Of a stretch of 64,000 nt of DNA, positions 1,989 through 14,200 are shown one piece after another. Position 1 is the stretch's first letter; the number at the start of each line of letters is the position of its first letter. Location: positions 310,001-374,000 of the forward strand of contig JAHLTZ010000018.1 of NCBI GenBank assembly GCA_025786725.1. The letters run 5' to 3'. The notes beneath the pieces were generated by a model. It searched no databases. It had not been told where the DNA came from and saw nothing but the letters and a program-made list of their open reading frames with translations. Source of the stretch: Syncephalis fuscata. Its lineage: Eukaryota > Zoopagomycota > Zoopagomycetes > Zoopagales > Piptocephalidaceae. Position numbers and translations under genes: made by a program.

Positions 1989-2916
1989 TTAATTATGAGA
2001 ACCAAATAGTGCTATGCCATCAGCAAATGCTTGTAAACGTGCATCCACTGCCATACCTTCATCGATATAACCTAGACAATATTAATAATGATTATAATTA
2101 ATATTAATATTTATGTATTATTAGTTACCTTTTAATGTTTGTGAGAGTGTTGCTAGTGGCACGGTGACCACTTCGATATCCTCGCCTAATTCAAGCATGG
2201 GTGTAGGATTCTTGTTCTCTGGTCGTGTAGTATCGATTTCCATATAGACAAGTTGCATATTGGCCCCACTTAATCCTGGGTCACTATAGACAATAGGTGA
2301 TACATGAGTAACTTGACCGCTATAGCCTGTCTCTTCTTTAAGTTCACGTATCGCTGTTTGTTCAGCTGTTTCATTTGGATCAAGTAGACCTATTAAGAAT
2401 AGATGTTTACTATCGATGATTACGATGTTGCTTAACTATTACTAACCAGCAGGAAACTCGACACAAATCTTGCCAACTGGTGGTCGGAATTGGCGTACCA
2501 ATACAGTACGTCTATCTGATGGATTTGCTGCCTTTAGAATAGGTATAATGGCAGCAGCTAGTTTATTAATACCATTACATTAATATCAATAAAATAAGTA
2601 GTAGATTAATGAATGAATATACGATATAGACTAACTAGTTTACTTACCATCACATACACCTGTGCGTGTTCTACGATTAGCACTCTCCCATATCTATAAT
2701 TATTATATTATAATAATTATAATAATTATAATAGTATAATATTAGTCTATTAATTAGAATAACTAACTCTAGACTAAGTGGTAAGCATATCATTGTACTT
2801 ACGCGTTCGTTACCAGCGCGATCTTTGTATACAAGACGTCGGAGTGAAATCCATTTAGCGTCCGCGTCATTCAGTGGTTCACTACGTAGAACCTGTGCTT
2901 TATGTTGTTGCGACAT
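1989..2916 (-). CDS. NUDT5/YSA1-type ADP-sugar pyrophosphatase (Nudix)
   Basis: Nudix hydrolase of the ADP-ribose pyrophosphatase family, which cleaves ADP-ribose and related ADP-sugars to AMP and sugar phosphate. Reading leftward, exon 1 starts MSQQHKAQVLRSEP and contains KWISLRRLVYKD. A small exon gives WESANRRTRTG, then VLVRQFRPPVGKICVEFPAG, then the full Nudix box: G, five residues, E, seven residues, then RELKEETGY. Next come VYSDPGLSGANMQ and the end DARLQAFADGIALFG. Order and spacing match NUDT5. The ATG at 2914-2916 was chosen because homology begins there; an in-frame extension to about 3123 exists but is not protein-like. Cytosolic, with no signal peptide seen. Confidence 0.9.
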
Positions 2917-3257
2917 AAGACGACGAGATACTTGTTGATAAACTAGTGTAGAATAGACAAATCTAGCACGGAATGGACAACAGTAACAAAGAGAACAACG
3001 AGATAACAATAATGGTGACGCAATCAATAGTTTGTCACAGTTACTACTAATACTACTAATTCTCACCAAACTTAACATGTATTGTATATAGATATAGACG
3101 AGTATCGATGCAATATCAATCAATCAATCAATCAATTGGTAAAGAGGAGAAATAGATTTAATTTGGTTTATTCAGTGTCAAGCATATCAACGATCTATAA
3201 TTATTTGGTCTTTGTTGTATAAATGATCATTGTAACTATGACCTAATAATAGGAATA

Positions 3258-3608
3258 TTATTTAATTTTTGCCTCAGTAAATAGTACATGTTGGCGCACT
3301 AGAATACACATCGTCAAACATCAATTATGATATACATTATAATAGTAGAGTCAGTAGGTTACCTTTAGGATCGTATTTCATCATAGATAACTTGGGTGCA
3401 AGACGTGGACGGGAACGAGCATAGAAGAACCCAGTATTGGCCGTACTAAGTAATTTGACGAGAATCACGCTAGAATACACATTAATCTATGTTCGCGTCA
3501 CTCTCGCTTACTACTTACCGAGCCTTTGCCTTTTTTGCCACTACATAGTTGAAAAAGGTTGTAAAATAATGAGCTGTGACCTATTGTCGCTTATTGATAT
3601 TACTTACT
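3258..3608 (-). CDS. Mitochondrial large-subunit ribosomal protein bL33m, start codon split by an intron
   Basis: A 56-residue protein in four exons (3608 plus upstream leader, 3519-3540, 3363-3469, 3258-3298). It reads MAKKAKARVILVKLL, then STANTGFFYARSRPRL, APKLSMMKYDPK and VRQHVLFTEAKIK. This is the whole bL33 family, including the TGFFY and MKYDP motifs. The initiator is assembled by splicing: the leader exon ends in A before GTAAGT (complement of 3602-3607), and exon 2 begins TG after ATGTAG. Introns 2 and 3 share the identical 3' end ATGTGTATTCTAG. It functions in the mitochondrial ribosome. The gene is divergent from SPF27. Confidence 0.87.
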
Positions 3609-3720
3609 TGTTAGTATAGAGCAGAGATCAATAGAATGTTAAAAGAAAAAGGAATCGTTAATAATTGATCTAAATACAACACGTCTTTTCATTTTCACTT
3701 TCTATCGTTTAACTAAAAAC
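3609..3720. promoter_or_regulatory. Short divergent promoter between bL33m and SPF27
   Basis: Only about 112 bp separate the leader exon of bL33m from the SPF27 start codon. The two genes point away from each other, so this interval must carry both promoters. It is AT-rich and no clear TATA box was identified. Confidence 0.5.
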
Positions 3721-4732
3721 ATGAACAACACTAACCACACTTCTCAAGAAGTATTGCTGGACGCGTTACCTTGTAGGTCTATTACAACGCTATAGATTAC
3801 TATTATTATTATTATTATTTAACATAGATGTTATATAGATGTTGACCGTCAACTAGATGAAGAAGGTAACTATTGTTTATACGCTTTAAAAGCAGTATTT
3901 ACTGATGCTTACTAACTGACCTGTCATTATACGACTATATACACTATTAGGTGTACGTGAATCGGTAGAAAAGATGATTGAAGATGAACTAAAGACGTTT
4001 TCATTTGAGGAACGCGATCGATTGCCAGTATTCTCGGATAAAGCATTGGTGAGTGGCATATAGACTGGCTATACTACCATCCTTGTTAATAGTATTATGT
4101 TGTAGGCACCCTCTAAAGAAGGCGCAGTATGGAAGGCTACCCTGGATAGTATGACGGATAGTAAACAAAAGCTGAATGCATTGGATACACTACGTTATCG
4201 TATGCCTACCGAGCCAGATGATAATGATAATGATGTTGATCTGGCAACATGGCAAGCATTATGTGCATCCACTGAGACACAGTTACAGCATCAACATTTA
4301 AGGTAGAGTACTGTATAATAAAAGTTTTATATTTGCTAATAATGGATTTAATTGATTAGGCTGTGTAATCTTGAGTTGTTGCAGAAATTTGGTGGCAATG
4401 CCTGGCGTTTGCACAATTATCAAGTTGAAGGACAAGTTGATGCTATGAAGCGAACACTTGAAGCGGAAAAGGCCAAAGTTGTGACTGTAATCAACAGCGT
4501 AAAATGATGCAAGTAAGTGTATTATTGAATGAATAGTGACAGTTGTATAAATGCTAATTAATTAACTAATTATCATGTAGTTGGATGCTGGAGAGAAATT
4601 ACGTAAATTGGAAGAACAATGGCAAACATTAATCGGTCAGAATGCACATTAGAAGTGGCTTGTGCAGTATTGGAGAAAGAAATTGGCGATTGGCAGAAAT
4701 ACAAAGAGACTTTAACACAGTATCAAAAATAG
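3721..4732 (+). CDS. SPF27/BCAS2/Cwf7-like splicing factor, with two frame breaks
   Basis: Homologue of pre-mRNA splicing factor SPF27 (BCAS2), a subunit of the Prp19/NineTeen complex. Exons are 3721-3772, 3839-3865, 3951-4048, 4106-4302, 4360-about 4513 and about 4580-4732. Visible features are LLDALPYVDRQLDEEG at the N terminus, a middle helix region, ELLQKFGGNAWRLHNYQ, then NQQRKMMQ, EKLRKLEEQWQTL and VACAVLEKEIGDWQKYKE. Frame must shift by one missing base near 4488 (between VVTV and NQQRK) and again near 4650 (between GQNAH and LEVAC). Without these, stops truncate the conserved coiled-coil end. Because the protein is otherwise intact and the neighbouring ZW10 end has the same fault, sequence error is likelier than decay. 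Confidence 0.85.
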
Positions 4733-4856
4733 TAACAACAACAACAATAATAATAATAAGAGCATTAAGAACCGCGGTGTTAAATGGTATTAAATTGATC
4801 GAATGGATTTGTGTAATTGATCTATTAAAACTGATATATTCGAAATAAATGATTGT

Positions 4857-7800
4857 CTATTCCGAACGAGCAGTGCTTATTTCTTCTAAATTCTTTTTAC
4901 GAAGTGGTGTATCAGAGAATAGAGCACACAACAGAGTGGTTAATTCATCCAAGGAGAATACATCAAGTAGATGGGCCGGAATCGTTGCATAATATCGGCA
5001 AAGCTTAGTTCTAATAGTTCAACTAATTGACGGAACTTGGTCCAACTTGGTACATAATGAGGTGGTGGTGTCTATGATGCAAATTGTTATAATGTTATTA
5101 CACTAACCACAGCTGATTTATTAAACTATTTAACAACTTACCTGATGATGTTCTTTTGTTGTATCAGTCACAAATAGATTAGCTAGTTCAAATAACATTT
5201 GACATGCTTTATGCAACTGATAAGATTCATTAGCAGATATATCCGCTAATTTGAGAATATCATTGGTTATTCGCATAAGTAGACAATCGATTAATTGACC
5301 AATGGCACGATCATGTAATGGACGGGGTAGAGTGGACTGTTAACTAGCTATTAGTATAATGGCATTTAATAAACTTGCTAAATATGTTACTTACTTTCCA
5401 AACATCACTAAGTTTACGTAACTGATAGACAGTTTGTAGGATGGTTTGTTGGATCTTTTCATATCTTTCATTCTCACCCGCATCGTGTAGTCCATTCAAT
5501 TCATTATACGCTTCAAATAAGGCTTTTTGTTGATATGTCTATTAATTCGTATATATATATATATATATATATTGGTTAGTAATATTTAATGATTATGCTA
5601 ATCTATTAACAATTACCAATGTTCGATTAAAGTAAACTTGACCCAATTGACGAAGAAGTGGTACTAGATCGGTAAAATGAATGGCCAGTCGTTCTGTATC
5701 AGTCGGTAGATAAGAGCGATAGGTAAGATCAAGTACTAGCATTAGATGAGCTAGTAGCATGCAGTCATTGTGAAATTGCATAGCCAGTGCCGGTACACTT
5801 TCTAGAATACGTGATTGTTGCTGAGGTACAAGTGCTTGAAATAGCTCAGCCATTTGACGTACAGCAAGCAGTAATTCTTTAGCACTGCATAGCATCTTTT
5901 AGTATAATTCATATTAAGCATAGTTGTAATTACCCGTCAGGTGATGCTAGTTGACATGCTTCTTCCACAATCGTTTCAATAGCTTGTTTCAATTGAATGA
6001 TGGATGTGCTGACTAGGCATACCGGCATATTGAATGGATCCTGCGGTAGACATAATGTTCCCGGTGTGTTGCTGGCACGATTCTCAGTCAGTACCACAGC
6101 CTTAAACGAGTCTTCATTTGTATATCGTACTATATATACATATATACTAATTAATTAATTGTCAATAAATTATAGCCAACTTACATTGCCAAACTACATC
6201 TTTTAACTTGACACTTGTAAAATCATAGGTCGATAAAAGCTTTCGTGCTTGTTGCAAACAATGACGATGCTTTTTTTGTGCATAATACTTATCATTTTGT
6301 TTTGTAAACTGTATTAATTGACTATTTGGTCCAATATTAAATCCTATATAATAGCATGTTAATAAATATAATAGCATGTTAATAAATATAATAGCCTATT
6401 ATTTATAACTAATAATATACCTAATTCTTTAAAGCTATTTTCAAATTGGCGTGTTTGCTGATTAATTTTATCAAACAGTTTCAGCGATGCGCTATCTACA
6501 GGCAGTATGGCTTGCAGATAATCCGATACTAACAGTTCATAAAGAGGATTCACAATAGCAGTGCTGAATAGCAATCTAATCTGCCGCGATACCTCCTCAT
6601 TTTCTGATCTAGTCAATGTATTTAATATGAATTCAATTATCTTTTGTATATTTTTATACAATGTATCTATCATTTATGTTAATTAAATAGTATATAGCTC
6701 AATTTATAACCAACTATACCTGATTGCTCCACTACTTTATCAAATGCTAATGAGTTTAAAGATTCATCATTTAATTGTAAAGTTAAAACGTGTGTTTTGG
6801 CGTTCGATTGTTCATTCAAGCCACTGTTCTGTCGATGTAATAAAGGCTGAATCATATTACGTAGCAAAAGACGTACAATTATATCCATTCGAGTGGGTAA
6901 TGCATTCAAACGAAATAGAGCGTAAACAGTGTCATCAAGATGGCCTTTAATTGATACATCATCATCATCATTATTATTATTAAAAATAATTTAACACTTT
7001 TTAGTAATCTTAATTTACCTTGTTTTTGAATGTCTACAATTAATTCAACGCTCTTTCCTTCCGTATTGAAGCGAATCATTTTTGTAAAAGCCCCTTCAAT
7101 TTCATTCACCAAATTGTTATGTAATTGACGAATACGATCCTGACAATACCAATTAATTACTATACTTAATTCACATCTATCTACTTACTCGACATAGTGA
7201 AATGATATCAATTTGATCAATAGTATTGGCTTGAGAAAGAATTAATTGCTAATCATCATCAAAACAGTTATTATACAGCTAAAAGTGATATGGATAAAAT
7301 AACAATAGTAGCCGTTACAACTATTGCACTCTTACCATGGCATCCAAGCTATCGAGTGCATTACAAAACTTCATAGCGGTTCGAGCTATTTGAAATTGTT
7401 CTAATTGCTCTTGAAACTTTGATATAATAGTAAATTATTTGTAATTATTTGAGTTTTTGCTGTCGTTTACCTTGGACAACAATTGAAGCATTTGAATAAT
7501 GCTATTTTCCTGTTCAATATCCTTTTCAAGCGTTGTTTGTTGTTGCAACACTTGGACAAGTTCATTTTTGATTCCATTCTAGAACATTAATAAGATATAC
7601 ACATAAATAGACGCTTATTTGATTTATCAACATATTTACCGTGCCATCCAATGGTAAAGCAAGTGTATTTGCTTGTCCAAATAAATCGGCCAGTTCCCCA
7701 GCCAATTCGGTCGATGTACTTAGTAGCTGCTGTAATGAGTCAGCATTATTGCTAATTAGACCAACCAGCTGATCCTGCAATATGACGTGGTGAATAAGCA

Positions 7801-9390: not shown

Positions 9391-10821
9391 ATGGTATAGT
9401 CCATACACTACAGCCTATTGACATTTCAGCATAACCATAGGCTTAAATAGACCACGCAATACACACAGCTAACCATTGCACCACAATTGCACTCTCTTTC
9501 TCCAAGTATTCACCACTATCTACTTTATACCAATTATATTCTATTATCTGTTTTATTTGTTTGTTTCAACAAATCAGAATCAACATAAAGCGTCCTATTG
9601 CTGTCGTCTGTACCATCGTCGTGGCTTTTGTGGCCAACATAGCCATGGCAGATGCTAAGCCAATGCTAGTTCGTCGTGGTAGGTTGCAACTACGATGCTC
9701 AATTAATTAGTTACTCAATCAAATACTTTTTGTAATACCAAACTGAATTTGATAGCCTGTAAGTGATTTTATAAATCCTTAAACATGCTAAATACATATC
9801 GCCCACTATACGTGTTTAGTAACTTATATTGATAGTTTGTAAGTAGCTCCATCTATTAATTAGTTATATAATAACCATATGCCATTCACCTTTTTGTGAT
9901 TAATAATTTGTATTAATAAAGAGTAAGCAGCGTTGTATATTAATTTAATTATATACCAACAATTTTGCATTTACTTTGCGTGCTCAATAATGTGCATTAA
10001 TAGAGCGTAAGTAACGTTTTACATTAACTAATTATATACTAAATTTATGCTGTTTACTGTGTGTACTCAATAATATGTATTAATATTTTGTAAGTGGTGG
10101 TTTAGCTTAACTAGCTATATGCTAAGATATTTCATGCACCATGTGTGCCAATGATTTGTATTAATAGCAGGTAAGTGGCGGTGTATAGTAATGGGCTATA
10201 TATTAATCATGTTTCATGCGCTGTGTTTGTTCAATAGCCTGTATTAATAGGCGGTAAATAAGATCGTATATTGATTAACTATCATTAGCTAATCCGATAT
10301 TTGTACGTTGAATGGTTTTTATTGATAGATGGTAGGTGAGACTGCATATTAAGCTACTATGTTCTAATCATAAACCATGCATTGTGCGTTTTTAGTAAGA
10401 TATTTTTATAGAATGTAAGTGGAGCTGTATGGAAATTGGATAAATGTTAATTATATATTATACATAGTATGTAGCTAGTAATTTAATGCTAACAAACAGT
10501 AAGTGATATTTCACACCATCTAATTATGTACTAATCATATACTGTTACTGAACATTTTAATGGCATTTGCCGATAGATGGTGAGATAAACTGCATAATAG
10601 TTAGCTATATACTAATTAAACGAACTTTACTGTATACATCTATACCATGAAATAACTAGCATAATTTAAAACATTAGCATGTATAATCATTAGGTTACCG
10701 TTTCCACTACGTTAGATATATATATATGGCAAGAAGCAAAATCATTTGACAAATGCCGTTTAGTCCATTCACATATCAAGCTCCAGCCAATGCTCCGGGT
10801 TATTCATATTTCAATCAATGA
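9391..10821 (+). CDS. Putative secreted peptide gene containing the micro-exon/intron array; start and splicing unresolved
   Basis: An open segment ending at 9678 encodes a signal-peptide-like stretch (KRPIAVVCTIVVAFVANIA, then MADAKPMLVRRG) and stops at a GTAGGT donor. The position expected for the initiator is ATA (9585-9587), not ATG. A candidate start is the ATG at 9391-9393, immediately followed by GTATAG, spliced to the AAAG acceptor before CGT at 9591. A plausible last exon starts at 10764 after CCGTTTAG and reads SPFTYQAPANAPGYSYFNQ to a TGA at 10819-10821. Between them lie thirteen intron-like units (see the repeat entry). The phase left by exon 1 (one base) does not match the last exon (two bases), and joining all triplets in exon 1 phase gives an early stop. 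The exact transcript therefore cannot be stated, and it may be a decayed or non-standard gene. No family is recognised. Confidence 0.4.
9679..10763 (+). repeat. Tandem array of 13 intron-like units separated by 3-nt spacers
   Basis: Donor-like hexamers begin at 9679, 9759, 9839, 9923, 10007, 10090, 10171, 10254, 10332, 10415, 10499, 10580 and 10681. They read GTAGGT, GTAAGT, GTAAGT, GTAAGC, GTAAGT, GTAAGT, GTAAGT, GTAAAT, GTAGGT, GTAAGT, GTAAGT, GTGAGA and GTATAA. Spacing is 78-84 bp except the last (101 bp). Most units carry a mid-position TATACTAAT-like branch motif and end in TATTAATAG or GATAG. Exactly three bases then precede the next donor: CCT, TTT, AGA, AGC, TTT, CAG, GCG, ATG, AAT, ACA, ATG, CAT. 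Three acceptors have lost AG (before AGA, the second TTT, and ACA). The rest of each unit has diverged strongly, so the splice signals are the best-kept parts. Confidence 0.85.
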
Positions 10822-11279
10822 TATTATCATATTACAAACAATTTTACAATTAGTCGTGTATATATAGCTATGTAAACTTGTAGTAACAAACATATAGTCA
10901 TATCTATGCTTATGCTTAATTTGCATCCAATTATTGAGAAGCACTAGTCAGTAAATATATTAGCATTGTATTTGTACAAATACAATTTATTATGTCGACT
11001 TGCGTGATGCAGGGCAATGTTAATGATTAAGGATGTACAAACCAAAACTATTAAAATCCAAAGTAAGCCACATTAAAATGAAACTGAGGAATTAGAATTT
11101 AGCAACAATGTTAATACTCTATCATTAATATTAACTTTAAAAACAGTCTTTTTATTAGCAACAGCCTTTCAGTAAATAATAAACATAAGATTAAACATAA
11201 CATTATCGTAAAGCTTTTAATCTTCATTACTATTTGTTGACATGCTTTTGTAAACAATTATAGCATTTCGCTTTTTTAA
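10822..11279. other. Intergenic, nothing recognised
   Basis: AT-rich sequence between the end of the array gene and the metH stop codon. No open frame or repeat of note was seen. It presumably carries both 3' ends. Confidence 0.5.
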
Positions 11280-14200
11280 TTACGTTTCATAAGCAAGAAT
11301 AGGACGAAGCCACTTCTCTACTTCATCTACCGATACCGATTTACGCTCGGCATAGTTTTCAATCTAGTTGTAAATGAAATACATTATTAGTTGTCTATAC
11401 AAACAAGCTTATCGTTTCTACTTACTTGATCCTTTTCAATCTTGCCTACTGCAAAGTATCGTGACTCTGAGTTGGCAAAATAAAGGCCGCTAACCGATGC
11501 AGCTGGCCACATGGCAAGTGATTCAGTCAGTTGAATATCCGTTTCTTGTTCGATATTGGCAAGCTTCCACATAACACGTTTCTCTGTGTGGTCTGGCTGA
11601 CTTGGATAGCCCGGTGCTATATAAGATACCATTATTTGTTAATTAATCTACCTACTATAATTAAAATGTTATTAAATACCTGGTCGAATGCCCTATTTTT
11701 ATACAATAAAATACACGTTATTAGCAATAAATTGCATATCCATCAATATGTCACTCACCTGATATTTCACCGACAACATGGCTTCAATATCCAAATTTTC
11801 ATTCTTGTTATAGCCCCAGTATTCCTGTAAATCATTGATGGCTAATTAGTATGTTCCATCTACTAACTTAGCAAAATGGCTATTTTATTTACCCGACGCA
11901 GTTCAACATGGAGTGCCTCGGCAAATGCTTCGGCCAATCGATCGGCCAACGCTTTAACCATAATTGAGTTGTAGTCATCAAACTGCTTTTCATAGCTCGC
12001 GGCAAGTTCATCGGCTCCAAAACCAGAACTAACGGCAAAAAGACCAATATAGTCTGCAATACCGCTATCTTTGGGTGCAATAAAGTCGGATATGCACAAA
12101 TATGGATCTTGAGATTCTTTATCCTATATAGAGATGCATTAGCCATTATTTCTATGCTGTATAGCAATGTACTTTTTCCGCTTGTTGTCTAAAATATAGA
12201 ACAAATAAGTATTTATAAGCAATTAACCCTGTATGCTTATCATACCTTAATCCACAGAATTTTGCTGAAACCGTTTGACGTGTCTCATCGGTGTAAACCT
12301 GCCATTCAAGTATTTAACAATTTTATACAAAGTGGCAGTATTAGATTTATTACCTCGATATCATCACCTACGCTGTTGGCTATACAATATCATTAGATTT
12401 AATTATAATATTTAGCAACCCTTACCTGGATATAGACCAATAATACCCTTGGCTTTTAATAGCTTTTCATCTATAATACGTCTCAACAGCACTTGTGCCT
12501 CGTCGTATAGTTTCTTGGCTTCAGCACCTATTAAATCACAATTAGATTGAGCCATGTCTATAATTATTCAACAACCTACCAACATTCTCATCCTTAAATA
12601 TCTTGGGATAGCCACGATTTGGATAGCGACCTCGTAGTTGCCACACTTGGAAGAATGGATTCCAGTCGATATATTTAAGCAGTGAATTCAGATCATAATC
12701 TTTAAACACCTATAATTGAAATATCAATAGCAATTATATGTAATTTGCCATTTATCTACCTTCACACCCAAAAATGATGGCTTAACGGGCGATGATTGTG
12801 CTGCCCAGTCGATTTGTAAGCCTTGTTCGCATGCCTTTGGATATTTTAAATATTTACGATCCTTTAAAGAATCATACTAATCAAAGCAATTACTTGTTAC
12901 ACTCTCCACCATTATTAAAATCAAAAGTAGCTACTTACATGATCCTCGCGTACCTCTTCATACTCCTCTCGGATATCCTCAGCAAAGTCTTCCTTTGCTT
13001 GTTCATCAAGTAGATTTGAAACAACAACAACACTAGCCATTTAACTATTAATAACTGCAATATCGATCGTTTTTACAACGATTACCTTCTAGAAGCATCT
13101 AATACATGAATTGCCGGTACAGAGTAACGAGGAGCAATCTTCACTGCTGTATGTGTTTTACTCGTTGTAGCACCACCAATTAAAAGTGGAATTTTTACAC
13201 CTCGTCGCTCCATTTCTCGAGCCACGTGGATCATTTCATCCAATGAAGGCGTAATTAAACCAGACAAGCCAACAATGTCGGCCTGTTCTGCAATGGCCGT
13301 CTCGATAATCTTTTCAGCCGGAGTCATGACACCCAAATCAATAACCTATAATTAAGGGTTAGTTACGGTATCAATTATATTGATGTATCTATCTATTGAA
13401 CATACTTTGTAATTATTACAGCCTAGTACAACAGCTACAATATTCTTGCCAATATCTGTTTATCATCCATTGTTAATAATACGATTACAAACATACATAC
13501 ACATATATATATATTCAACTATCATACCATGAACATCTCCCTTGACCGTAGCCAATACTAATAACAATGTTTAATGATATGTTTACATTATCATATTCCA
13601 CTTACCAATTGTGCCATTGTACATCGATTGACTGGCATCAGTGTTGGCAGTCAGCTGTTGCTTTAATCGCTCTTCTTCCATAAATGGAATTAGATGAGCA
13701 ACAGCTCTAATAATTAAATGCTTGTAATTCTATACTATTAATAATTTGATCGTTTAACTTACTGCTTCATAACACGTGCACTTTTAATTACTTGAGGTAG
13801 AAACATTTTACCTGCACCAAATAGATCACCAACAATATTCATTCCGTCCATCAACGGCCCTTCAATGACATGTAATGGCCTTTCAAACTATCATTGTTGG
13901 CATGTATCAGTTTTGTTTATATAATCACTATTGTTTGATAATTACCTCTGGCGATACACGGGCTTCTTCCGTATCTTCGATAATATACTTGGTAATACCT
14001 TTAACAAGCGCATAGGACAGTCGTTTCCTTACTGGATCTTTTCGCCATTCTTCTTCGTTCTCCTTCTTCTCACCTACTTTTCCGTGTTGTTCAGCGTATT
14101 TAAGTAGTTTCTCTGTTGATTCGGGATCTTTGTTGTGAACTGCATTTTCACAAATCTCAAGCAGATCTTTGGGAATATCGTCGTAAATGGTAAGAAATCC

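Follow-up and report, generated by a model that had tools for sequence, protein, structure and literature searches.

A putative family of small secreted proteins encoded one codon per exon in the fungus Syncephalis fuscata, with an apparently decayed member

An array of splice signals three bases apart

The window analysed here is a stretch of 64,000 nucleotides from the genome of Syncephalis fuscata, a mycoparasite of the order Zoopagales (contig JAHLTZ010000018.1, positions 310,001 to 374,000). Towards its left end, on the forward strand, lies an exon encoding a hydrophobic leader that ends in RR with one base left over, and this is followed by a tandem array of intron-like units (Table 1). 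Donor-like sites occur at 12 positions (9679, 9759, 9839, 9923, 10007, 10090, 10171, 10254, 10332, 10415, 10499 and 10580), spaced 78-84 bp from one to the next, and between them stand 11 spacers, whose triplets are given in order in Table 1. Throughout the array exactly 3 bases separate an acceptor-like end from the following donor. GTAAGT is present at 7 of the 12 donors and AG at 8 of the 11 acceptors that precede spacers, the 3 of 11 without it being those before 9920, 10087 and 10496. A first-pass annotation of this DNA had proposed much of this layout, and the exact 3-nt spacing, the 78-84 bp unit size, the three acceptors without AG and the signal-peptide-coding exon ahead of the array were all borne out. 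It had counted thirteen units, however, where we find 12 donors and 11 spacers, and the end that it gave to the array, at 10763, is doubtful, as comparison with relatives (by eye) puts the end of the last intron near 10693.

A search of the window for the junction pattern TTAATAG-NNN-GTAAGT, with at most 1 mismatch allowed, gave 7 matches, all of them on the + strand within 9749-10420, compared with 0.22 in shuffled sequence. Chance or base composition as the source of the pattern was ruled out by these window shuffles together with reversed-pattern controls (see below). The units have nevertheless diverged far from one another, since Tandem Repeats Finder recognises no more than 2.7 copies of an 83-bp unit in the array.

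Two other genes of the window may be mentioned. At 11300-12000 on the minus strand lies one that we take to resemble cobalamin-dependent methionine synthase; it contains a 62-nt intron of the form GTAAGT...CTAAT...TAG, by eye of the same type as the array introns. The window also encodes a GRR1-like protein, whose nearest match, from Thamnocephalis sphaerospora, covers 79% of the query at 68%.

Table 1. Proposed parts of the array gene copy, in window coordinates
Feature	Position	Strand	Basis or remark
Exon 1 (putative signal peptide, ends ...RR + one base, phase 1; first codon position = ATA)	9585..9678	+	tblastn with family exon 1
Intron 1, donor GTAGGT, acceptor GATAG	9679..9755	+	
3-nt exon CCT	9756..9758	+	
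3-nt exon TTT	9836..9838	+	
3-nt spacer AGA; preceding acceptor without AG; completes TAG in phase 1	9920..9922	+	same triplets in twin L010
3-nt exon AGC	10004..10006	+	exact consensus junction
3-nt spacer TTT; preceding acceptor without AG	10087..10089	+	
3-nt exon CAG	10168..10170	+	exact consensus junction
3-nt exon GCG	10251..10253	+	
3-nt exon ATG	10329..10331	+	
3-nt exon AAT	10412..10414	+	
3-nt spacer ACA; preceding acceptor without AG	10496..10498	+	
3-nt exon ATG	10577..10579	+	
Last intron, donor GTGAGA; end set by comparison with relatives	10580..10693	+	by eye
Final exon + 3' UTR (similar to the 3' UTRs of relatives, both array and intronless); right edge approximate	10694..10830	+	by eye

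Exon sizes, reading frame and paralogs across the genome

A DNA search of the organism's own genome (28.95 Mb, 299 contigs) returned 127 matches. The exact junction TTAATAG-NNN-GTAAGT occurs at 1,992 sites genome-wide, and its reversed form at 1. When the gap between acceptor and donor was allowed to vary from 0 to 30, there were 2,171 sites (reversed pattern, 105), and in 1,992 of these the gap was exactly 3. The exact consensus junction was found in 233 of the 533 modelled 3-nt exons described below, which gives ~4,600 3-nt exons genome-wide, a rough extrapolation in which near-identical copies are included. The signal-peptide exon had at least 150 scored matches (150 of the 326 candidates were scored). 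The pattern at the end of exon 1 matched exactly at 105 sites, 62 of which lead directly into GTATGTT; the remainder include intronless members (L039, L041) and donor variants (L035). For closer study we took 26 array loci (L009-L034) and then ten further stretches. Two long arrays with nearly the same triplets lie ~19 kb apart, at C2:226057-228495 (within L035) and C2:245449-247902, and by their sequence look like a recent duplication.

A family exon 1 precedes the array in 25 of the 26 loci. Its alignment begins with M in 22 of these 25, the exceptions being L009, L010 and L030, and the N-terminus (MKLSIAVVCT...) is hydrophobic by eye, forming a putative signal peptide. A first junction scan, in which a 3-nt gap was assumed, yielded 580 junctions in the 26 loci, including L018, which is cut by its contig end. 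When donors and acceptors were instead scored separately, the nearest acceptor lay exactly 3 nt upstream in 521 of 597 donors. Gene models built for 24 loci under a flat exon-length prior (1-60 nt) assigned a length of 3 nt to 533 of 541 internal exons, and a stricter setting to 492 of 497; the donor and acceptor matrices had been trained on 3-nt junctions, so that these exon-length scores are not wholly independent, while the genome-wide pattern counts are. L018 and the window copy were left out of the models, and L010 was used in the stricter setting only.

In the flat-prior models of these 24 loci, 523 of 565 introns measured 60-100 nt; introns of 150-250 nt were retained in many models. 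The cleanest model, that of L019, has 20 of 20 internal exons at 3 nt and no long intron, and its last exon contains the stop. With an informed prior, L024 gave the longest series of 3-nt exons, 47. Clean loci lie at C57:600-2,600 (L019), C157:237,400-240,330 (L016) and C179:147,680-152,300 (L024). Models of L014 and L031 contained internal stops or odd exons. Somewhat longer exons also occur: there are apparent 15-nt exons in L016, L017, L020, L023 and L024 (pattern matches, by eye; the script chose otherwise), a 12-nt exon in the L024 model, and in L045 a 9-nt exon plus, by eye, one of 33 nt. The 15-nt pattern was present in 9 loci in all, and its occurrences in L021, L022, L025 and L031 were taken as spurious. 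In L026-L029 a stop codon is split over two 3-nt exons (CTT/AAG) just before the last exon.

The array introns are of the ordinary spliceosomal type, with a GTAAGT donor, a branch-like CTAAH and a YAG acceptor. CTAAH was found in 416 of 559 array introns, compared with 146 of 559 after shuffling; the position-wise consensus of donors and acceptors describes sites that had been picked by that same consensus.

Exon 1 ends on the first base of a codon, and the array triplets are accordingly joined in phase 1. Read in this way, 18 non-redundant loci have 2 stops in 379 codons, both at the array end (L027, L029). Shuffling the exon order within runs gave 15.1 stops (sd 3.0), and in 0 of 5,000 shuffles was the number as low as 2. 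Near-copies (L010, L012, L022, L023, L025, L026 and L028) had been removed before these counts. Additionally, phase-1 codon usage is one-sided (CCT 50/56 Pro, ACT 25/26 Thr, GCT 23/26 Ala, GAA 17/20 Glu, CTT 15/17). A phase 2 reading was rejected, with 37 stops in 379 codons as against 34.8 in shuffles.

The family also has intronless members (L036, L039, L041, L042), which share the leader and, by eye, have a like 3' UTR; deposited proteins of this kind exist as well. One array could be matched clearly to such a paralog. The array codons of L045 spell CKCQDEDGNCTSC over 1,058 bp and its 3-nt exons read KGDTCKCQDEDGNCTSCKEDQVFPIGN; contiguous L042 reads CKCRDDDGYCTSC. The 13 codons that are spread over 1,058 bp in L045 occupy 39 bp in L042, and 33 of the 39 bases agree; among 5,000 random orders of the exons the highest agreement was 27. 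At the protein level L045 scored 69 against its paralog in phase 1, and 24 in either of the two remaining phases. L045 was the one clear match among 8 arrays compared with contiguous paralogs. For the other 7, the real score was reached in 109 (L016), 135 (L030) and 361 (L046) of 2,000 shuffles, and in more than 1,000 of 2,000 for L035, L024, L009 and L013. The cysteine spacing of L035 resembled that of P0134 by eye, with a score not above shuffles.

Several smaller points of contact between the two kinds of gene were seen. The propeptide of L024 (exons of 3, 3, 15 and 3 nt, by eye) reads RR-AVAPLAKR and that of contiguous P0125 RR-AVEPLAKR, and in L013, L015 and L032 the last exon has its TAA where the intronless genes have theirs (by eye). 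The joined L016 protein matched some contiguous frames of its own genome into the mature part (e.g. C236:180432-180587, residues 1-52, 56%), with the leader carrying most of the score. The 17 deposited family proteins and 11 array peptides have no 5-residue words in common, and deposited models of array genes (P0126, P0129 and others) seem to read into introns. Among 8 proteins searched against Pfam no family exceeded the cut-off, the nearest being big defensin, to which the L045 peptide scored 17.5 bits (E 0.0043) where 25 was required, and none of six deposited proteins of the contiguous kind passed it. The mature part is contiguous in L036, L039, L041, L042 and L043, and cysteine-rich in some of them. 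Deposited P0137, on a contig of 333,414 bases, has a long charged region after its propeptide, DVVPLAKR.

Two other readings of the triplets have to be weighed against these results. They might be whole codons (phase 0) behind another first exon. Indeed, no stop occurs among 580 triplets in this phase, and for 410 triplets column shuffles led us to expect 6.5 stops, with none in 2 of 2,000; the missing stop triplets may, we infer, follow from phase-1 codon usage and avoidance of extra AG. However, in the modelled array loci exon 1 ends with one surplus base, L045 scores far lower in phase 0 (24 vs 69), and a leucine-rich string (Leu being 199 of the 580 triplets) would come to stand directly after the signal peptide, so that we regard this reading as barely credible. 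Alternatively, the arrays might be repetitive intron DNA, in which exon 1 joins the last exon, the internal signals are decoys or relics and the triplets are noncoding. Such an idea would suit the 17 deposited family proteins, which are without array residues, and the resemblance of the units to a diverged tandem repeat. But noncoding triplets should not avoid phase-1 stops beyond order shuffles, nor show one-sided codon usage, nor spell a stretch that matches contiguous paralog DNA, and we consider it very improbable. Recursive splicing without coding content, which had been suggested earlier for the window array, does not explain the data: its zero-length form (AG/GT, no exon) was ruled out, as the spacing of 3 nt is preserved and the bases within it act like codons.

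We read the arrays as one-codon-exon genes because of the open phase-1 frame, the codon bias, the match of L045 to its paralog and the 3-nt length of 533 of 541 exons. It is, in our view, highly likely that S. fuscata possesses a large gene family in which small secreted proteins are encoded with one codon to an exon, and that the window holds a decayed copy. The first-pass suggestion of a gene with 3-nt micro-exons is strongly supported for the family by the open frame, the one-sided codons, the L045 match and (by eye) a stop placed as in the intronless paralogs, and falls for the window copy, which looks decayed.

A model for the splicing, growth and decay of arrays

These results suggest a model whereby an ordinary exon would code for the signal peptide, ending in most members at a dibasic RR plus one base, and the rest of the protein would be carried by runs of 3-nt exons. 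Introns of ~80 nt, of the form GTAAGT ... CTAAT-like ... TTAATAG, would split nearly every codon after its first base; close to the start, some members would carry a few small exons of greater length (9, 12, 15, 33 nt), and the last exon would provide the stop and 3' UTR. The introns are presumably recognised singly, by intron definition, and removed one by one in order, because a 3-nt exon could hardly hold both splice complexes at once; each 3-nt exon would then be joined to the growing upstream exon. The product would likely be secreted as a peptide and cleaved behind RR, and behind KR in some members. Syncephalis is a genus of mycoparasites (PMC10386755), and the peptide might be used in contact with the fungal host.

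Such a gene may be alternatively spliced, as a 3-nt exon could be skipped without a frameshift. Indeed, since nearly all internal exons are 3 nt long and the introns are in phase 1, any subset of cassettes should be joinable without loss of frame. A bolder reading, which we hold to be possible while leaning against it, is that one gene with 25-50 one-codon cassettes would generate a very large set of peptides by skipping. Were this true, evolution would insert, delete and swap single residues by whole-unit copying, spliced copies might return as intronless genes, and the array would be a workshop for secreted peptides in an arms race between mycoparasite and host.

How arrays change can be followed in their introns. 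Intron identity within an array is 0.75 at lag 1 and 0.73 at lag 12, compared with 0.69 between loci (15 loci). In the same 15 loci, identity above 85% was found for 39 of 349 neighbouring introns versus 2 of 1,500 between-locus pairs, and close relatives occur within an array at lags such as 1, 2, 4 and 7. Length differences between related copies amounted to one unit (81 bp, L015/L032), two units (162 bp, L012/L013) and five units (413 bp, L016/L017). Large gaps that are not unit-sized were seen in L021/L022 (53) and L026/L029 (74), and a gap of 2,372 in L038/L046 reflects only the shorter L038. Growth of arrays via tandem duplication of exon-intron units is supported by these sequence comparisons; the first-pass annotation had raised such duplication, and the intron likeness and unit-sized indels bear it out as the route of growth. 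Arrays would thereby lengthen or shorten by whole exon-intron units, with whole amino acids gained or lost and the frame untouched.

In three diverged pairs of loci, differences were found at 51 of 116 codon positions 1+2, a count that misaligned units could inflate, and at 13 of 58 third positions; intron bodies differed at 730 of 4,181 positions and donors at 9 of 372 (codon positions 1+2 vs introns, Fisher p 7e-11). Five near-identical pairs showed no excess at codon positions (1/255 vs 65/6,361 in introns). In diverged copies, codons would differ more than introns while donors stay, which fits rapid protein change with the splice sites kept.

Where the arrays came from is a separate matter, on which a rival reading is compatible with one-codon-exon genes as such. 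Introner-like elements may have been inserted between the first and second base of nearly all codons of an old, originally contiguous gene. The family does include contiguous paralogs that share the leader and have a similar 3' UTR, and introns of different loci still average 69% identity. However, introns are more alike within an array than between loci, close copies differ by two, five and one whole units, and the contiguous copies could themselves be reverse-transcribed, fully spliced copies of array genes. We judge mass insertion to be rather unlikely.

The window copy itself looks, from its sequence, like a decayed family member. Its start codon position is ATA, where 8 of 8 other family loci compared have ATG, a difference absent from the first-pass annotation. 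Its third array codon is TAG, in agreement with the first-pass remark that triplets joined in exon 1 phase create a stop, and this stop is best read as damage because the coding phase is nearly stop-free in other loci. A 99% identical copy on contig C52 (L010) has an array interrupted by ~5.4 kb. One might argue that the window copy is still active, its lesions being bypassed by an upstream start or exon skipping, and the 7 of 12 donors with GTAAGT and 8 of 11 pre-spacer acceptors with AG would be in keeping with this. Nevertheless, the family start position without ATG, the TAG (present also in the twin L010), the three acceptors without AG and the large insertion in the near-identical array all speak against activity, which appears improbable to us.

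In L010 (C52:1-9500) the insert spans ~2109-7524 inside the array, with ~10 bases repeated at the joint, and contains two long open frames of 467 and 1,185 aa; it is probably a mobile element. L009 and L030 may be further decayed copies: each has a leader exon of the family type that is not in frame with its own ATG. L015 has one spacer without an acceptor AG (by eye), and L045 shows no evident last acceptor of the usual kind.

Relation to known gene architectures

We know of no precedent for a gene architecture of one-codon cassettes, and a search of the openly licensed PMC literature found no description of one-codon-exon arrays. If our reading is true, the arrays are an extreme of exon subdivision, in which each exon contributes a single amino acid to the mature protein, an arrangement repeated thousands of times across a 29-Mb genome. 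They would test the lower limit of exon size and the handling of serial 3-nt exons by the spliceosome, and would offer a system for measuring intron definition, ordered splicing and cassette skipping. Automated gene models are predicted to overlook a great part of an extensive secreted family in a mycoparasite. Duplication of exon-intron units as a means of gene growth would also bear on the spread of introns.

The first-pass comparison with schistosome micro-exon genes (MEGs) proved apt as an analogy, the arrays being akin to them, we suggest, by design and not by descent. Searches with the family proteins gave S. fuscata proteins only (15 and 17 matches), with no homology to MEG or aphid bicycle proteins; such searches need shared 5-residue words, and remote kinship may escape them. 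Bicycle exons encode several residues each, whereas here nearly every exon would be a single codon, in a fungal organism. According to one account, bicycle genes have ~17 exons per gene, with small internal exons nearly all of which start at codon position 2, and one 'megacycle' gene has over 100 microexons (PMC9168663). As far as this account goes, they share with the arrays a large, fast-evolving, effector-like family and internal exons that start at codon position 2.

In Schistosoma mansoni, MEG exons are described as 6-81 bp long (3-81 in the abstract of the same source) and mostly 15 bp, with 10 to 20 per gene and introns of 0.1-5 kb (PMC10526429). On that description, both systems have products behind a signal peptide (here putative), numerous short exons, most of them divisible by three in length, difficult annotation and variable products; the arrays differ in their 3-nt exons, up to 47 in a row, and in their ~80-nt introns. 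Introner-like elements, or introners, are reported as many similar introns in one genome (PMC4457414, PMC9860276). In contrast to what is reported there, the introns here follow one another in tandem at a distance of one codon, and copying seems to have involved the whole exon-intron unit. In the Trichoderma gene Xlr2 a microexon has been described, with functional microexons said to be new to filamentous fungi (PMC11121469); there, by that report, it is a single regulatory microexon. A single 3-nt microexon is spliced in Drosophila homothorax (PMC7392893). As reported, that is one 3-nt exon in a normal gene, whereas in the S. fuscata family a whole protein would be made of them.
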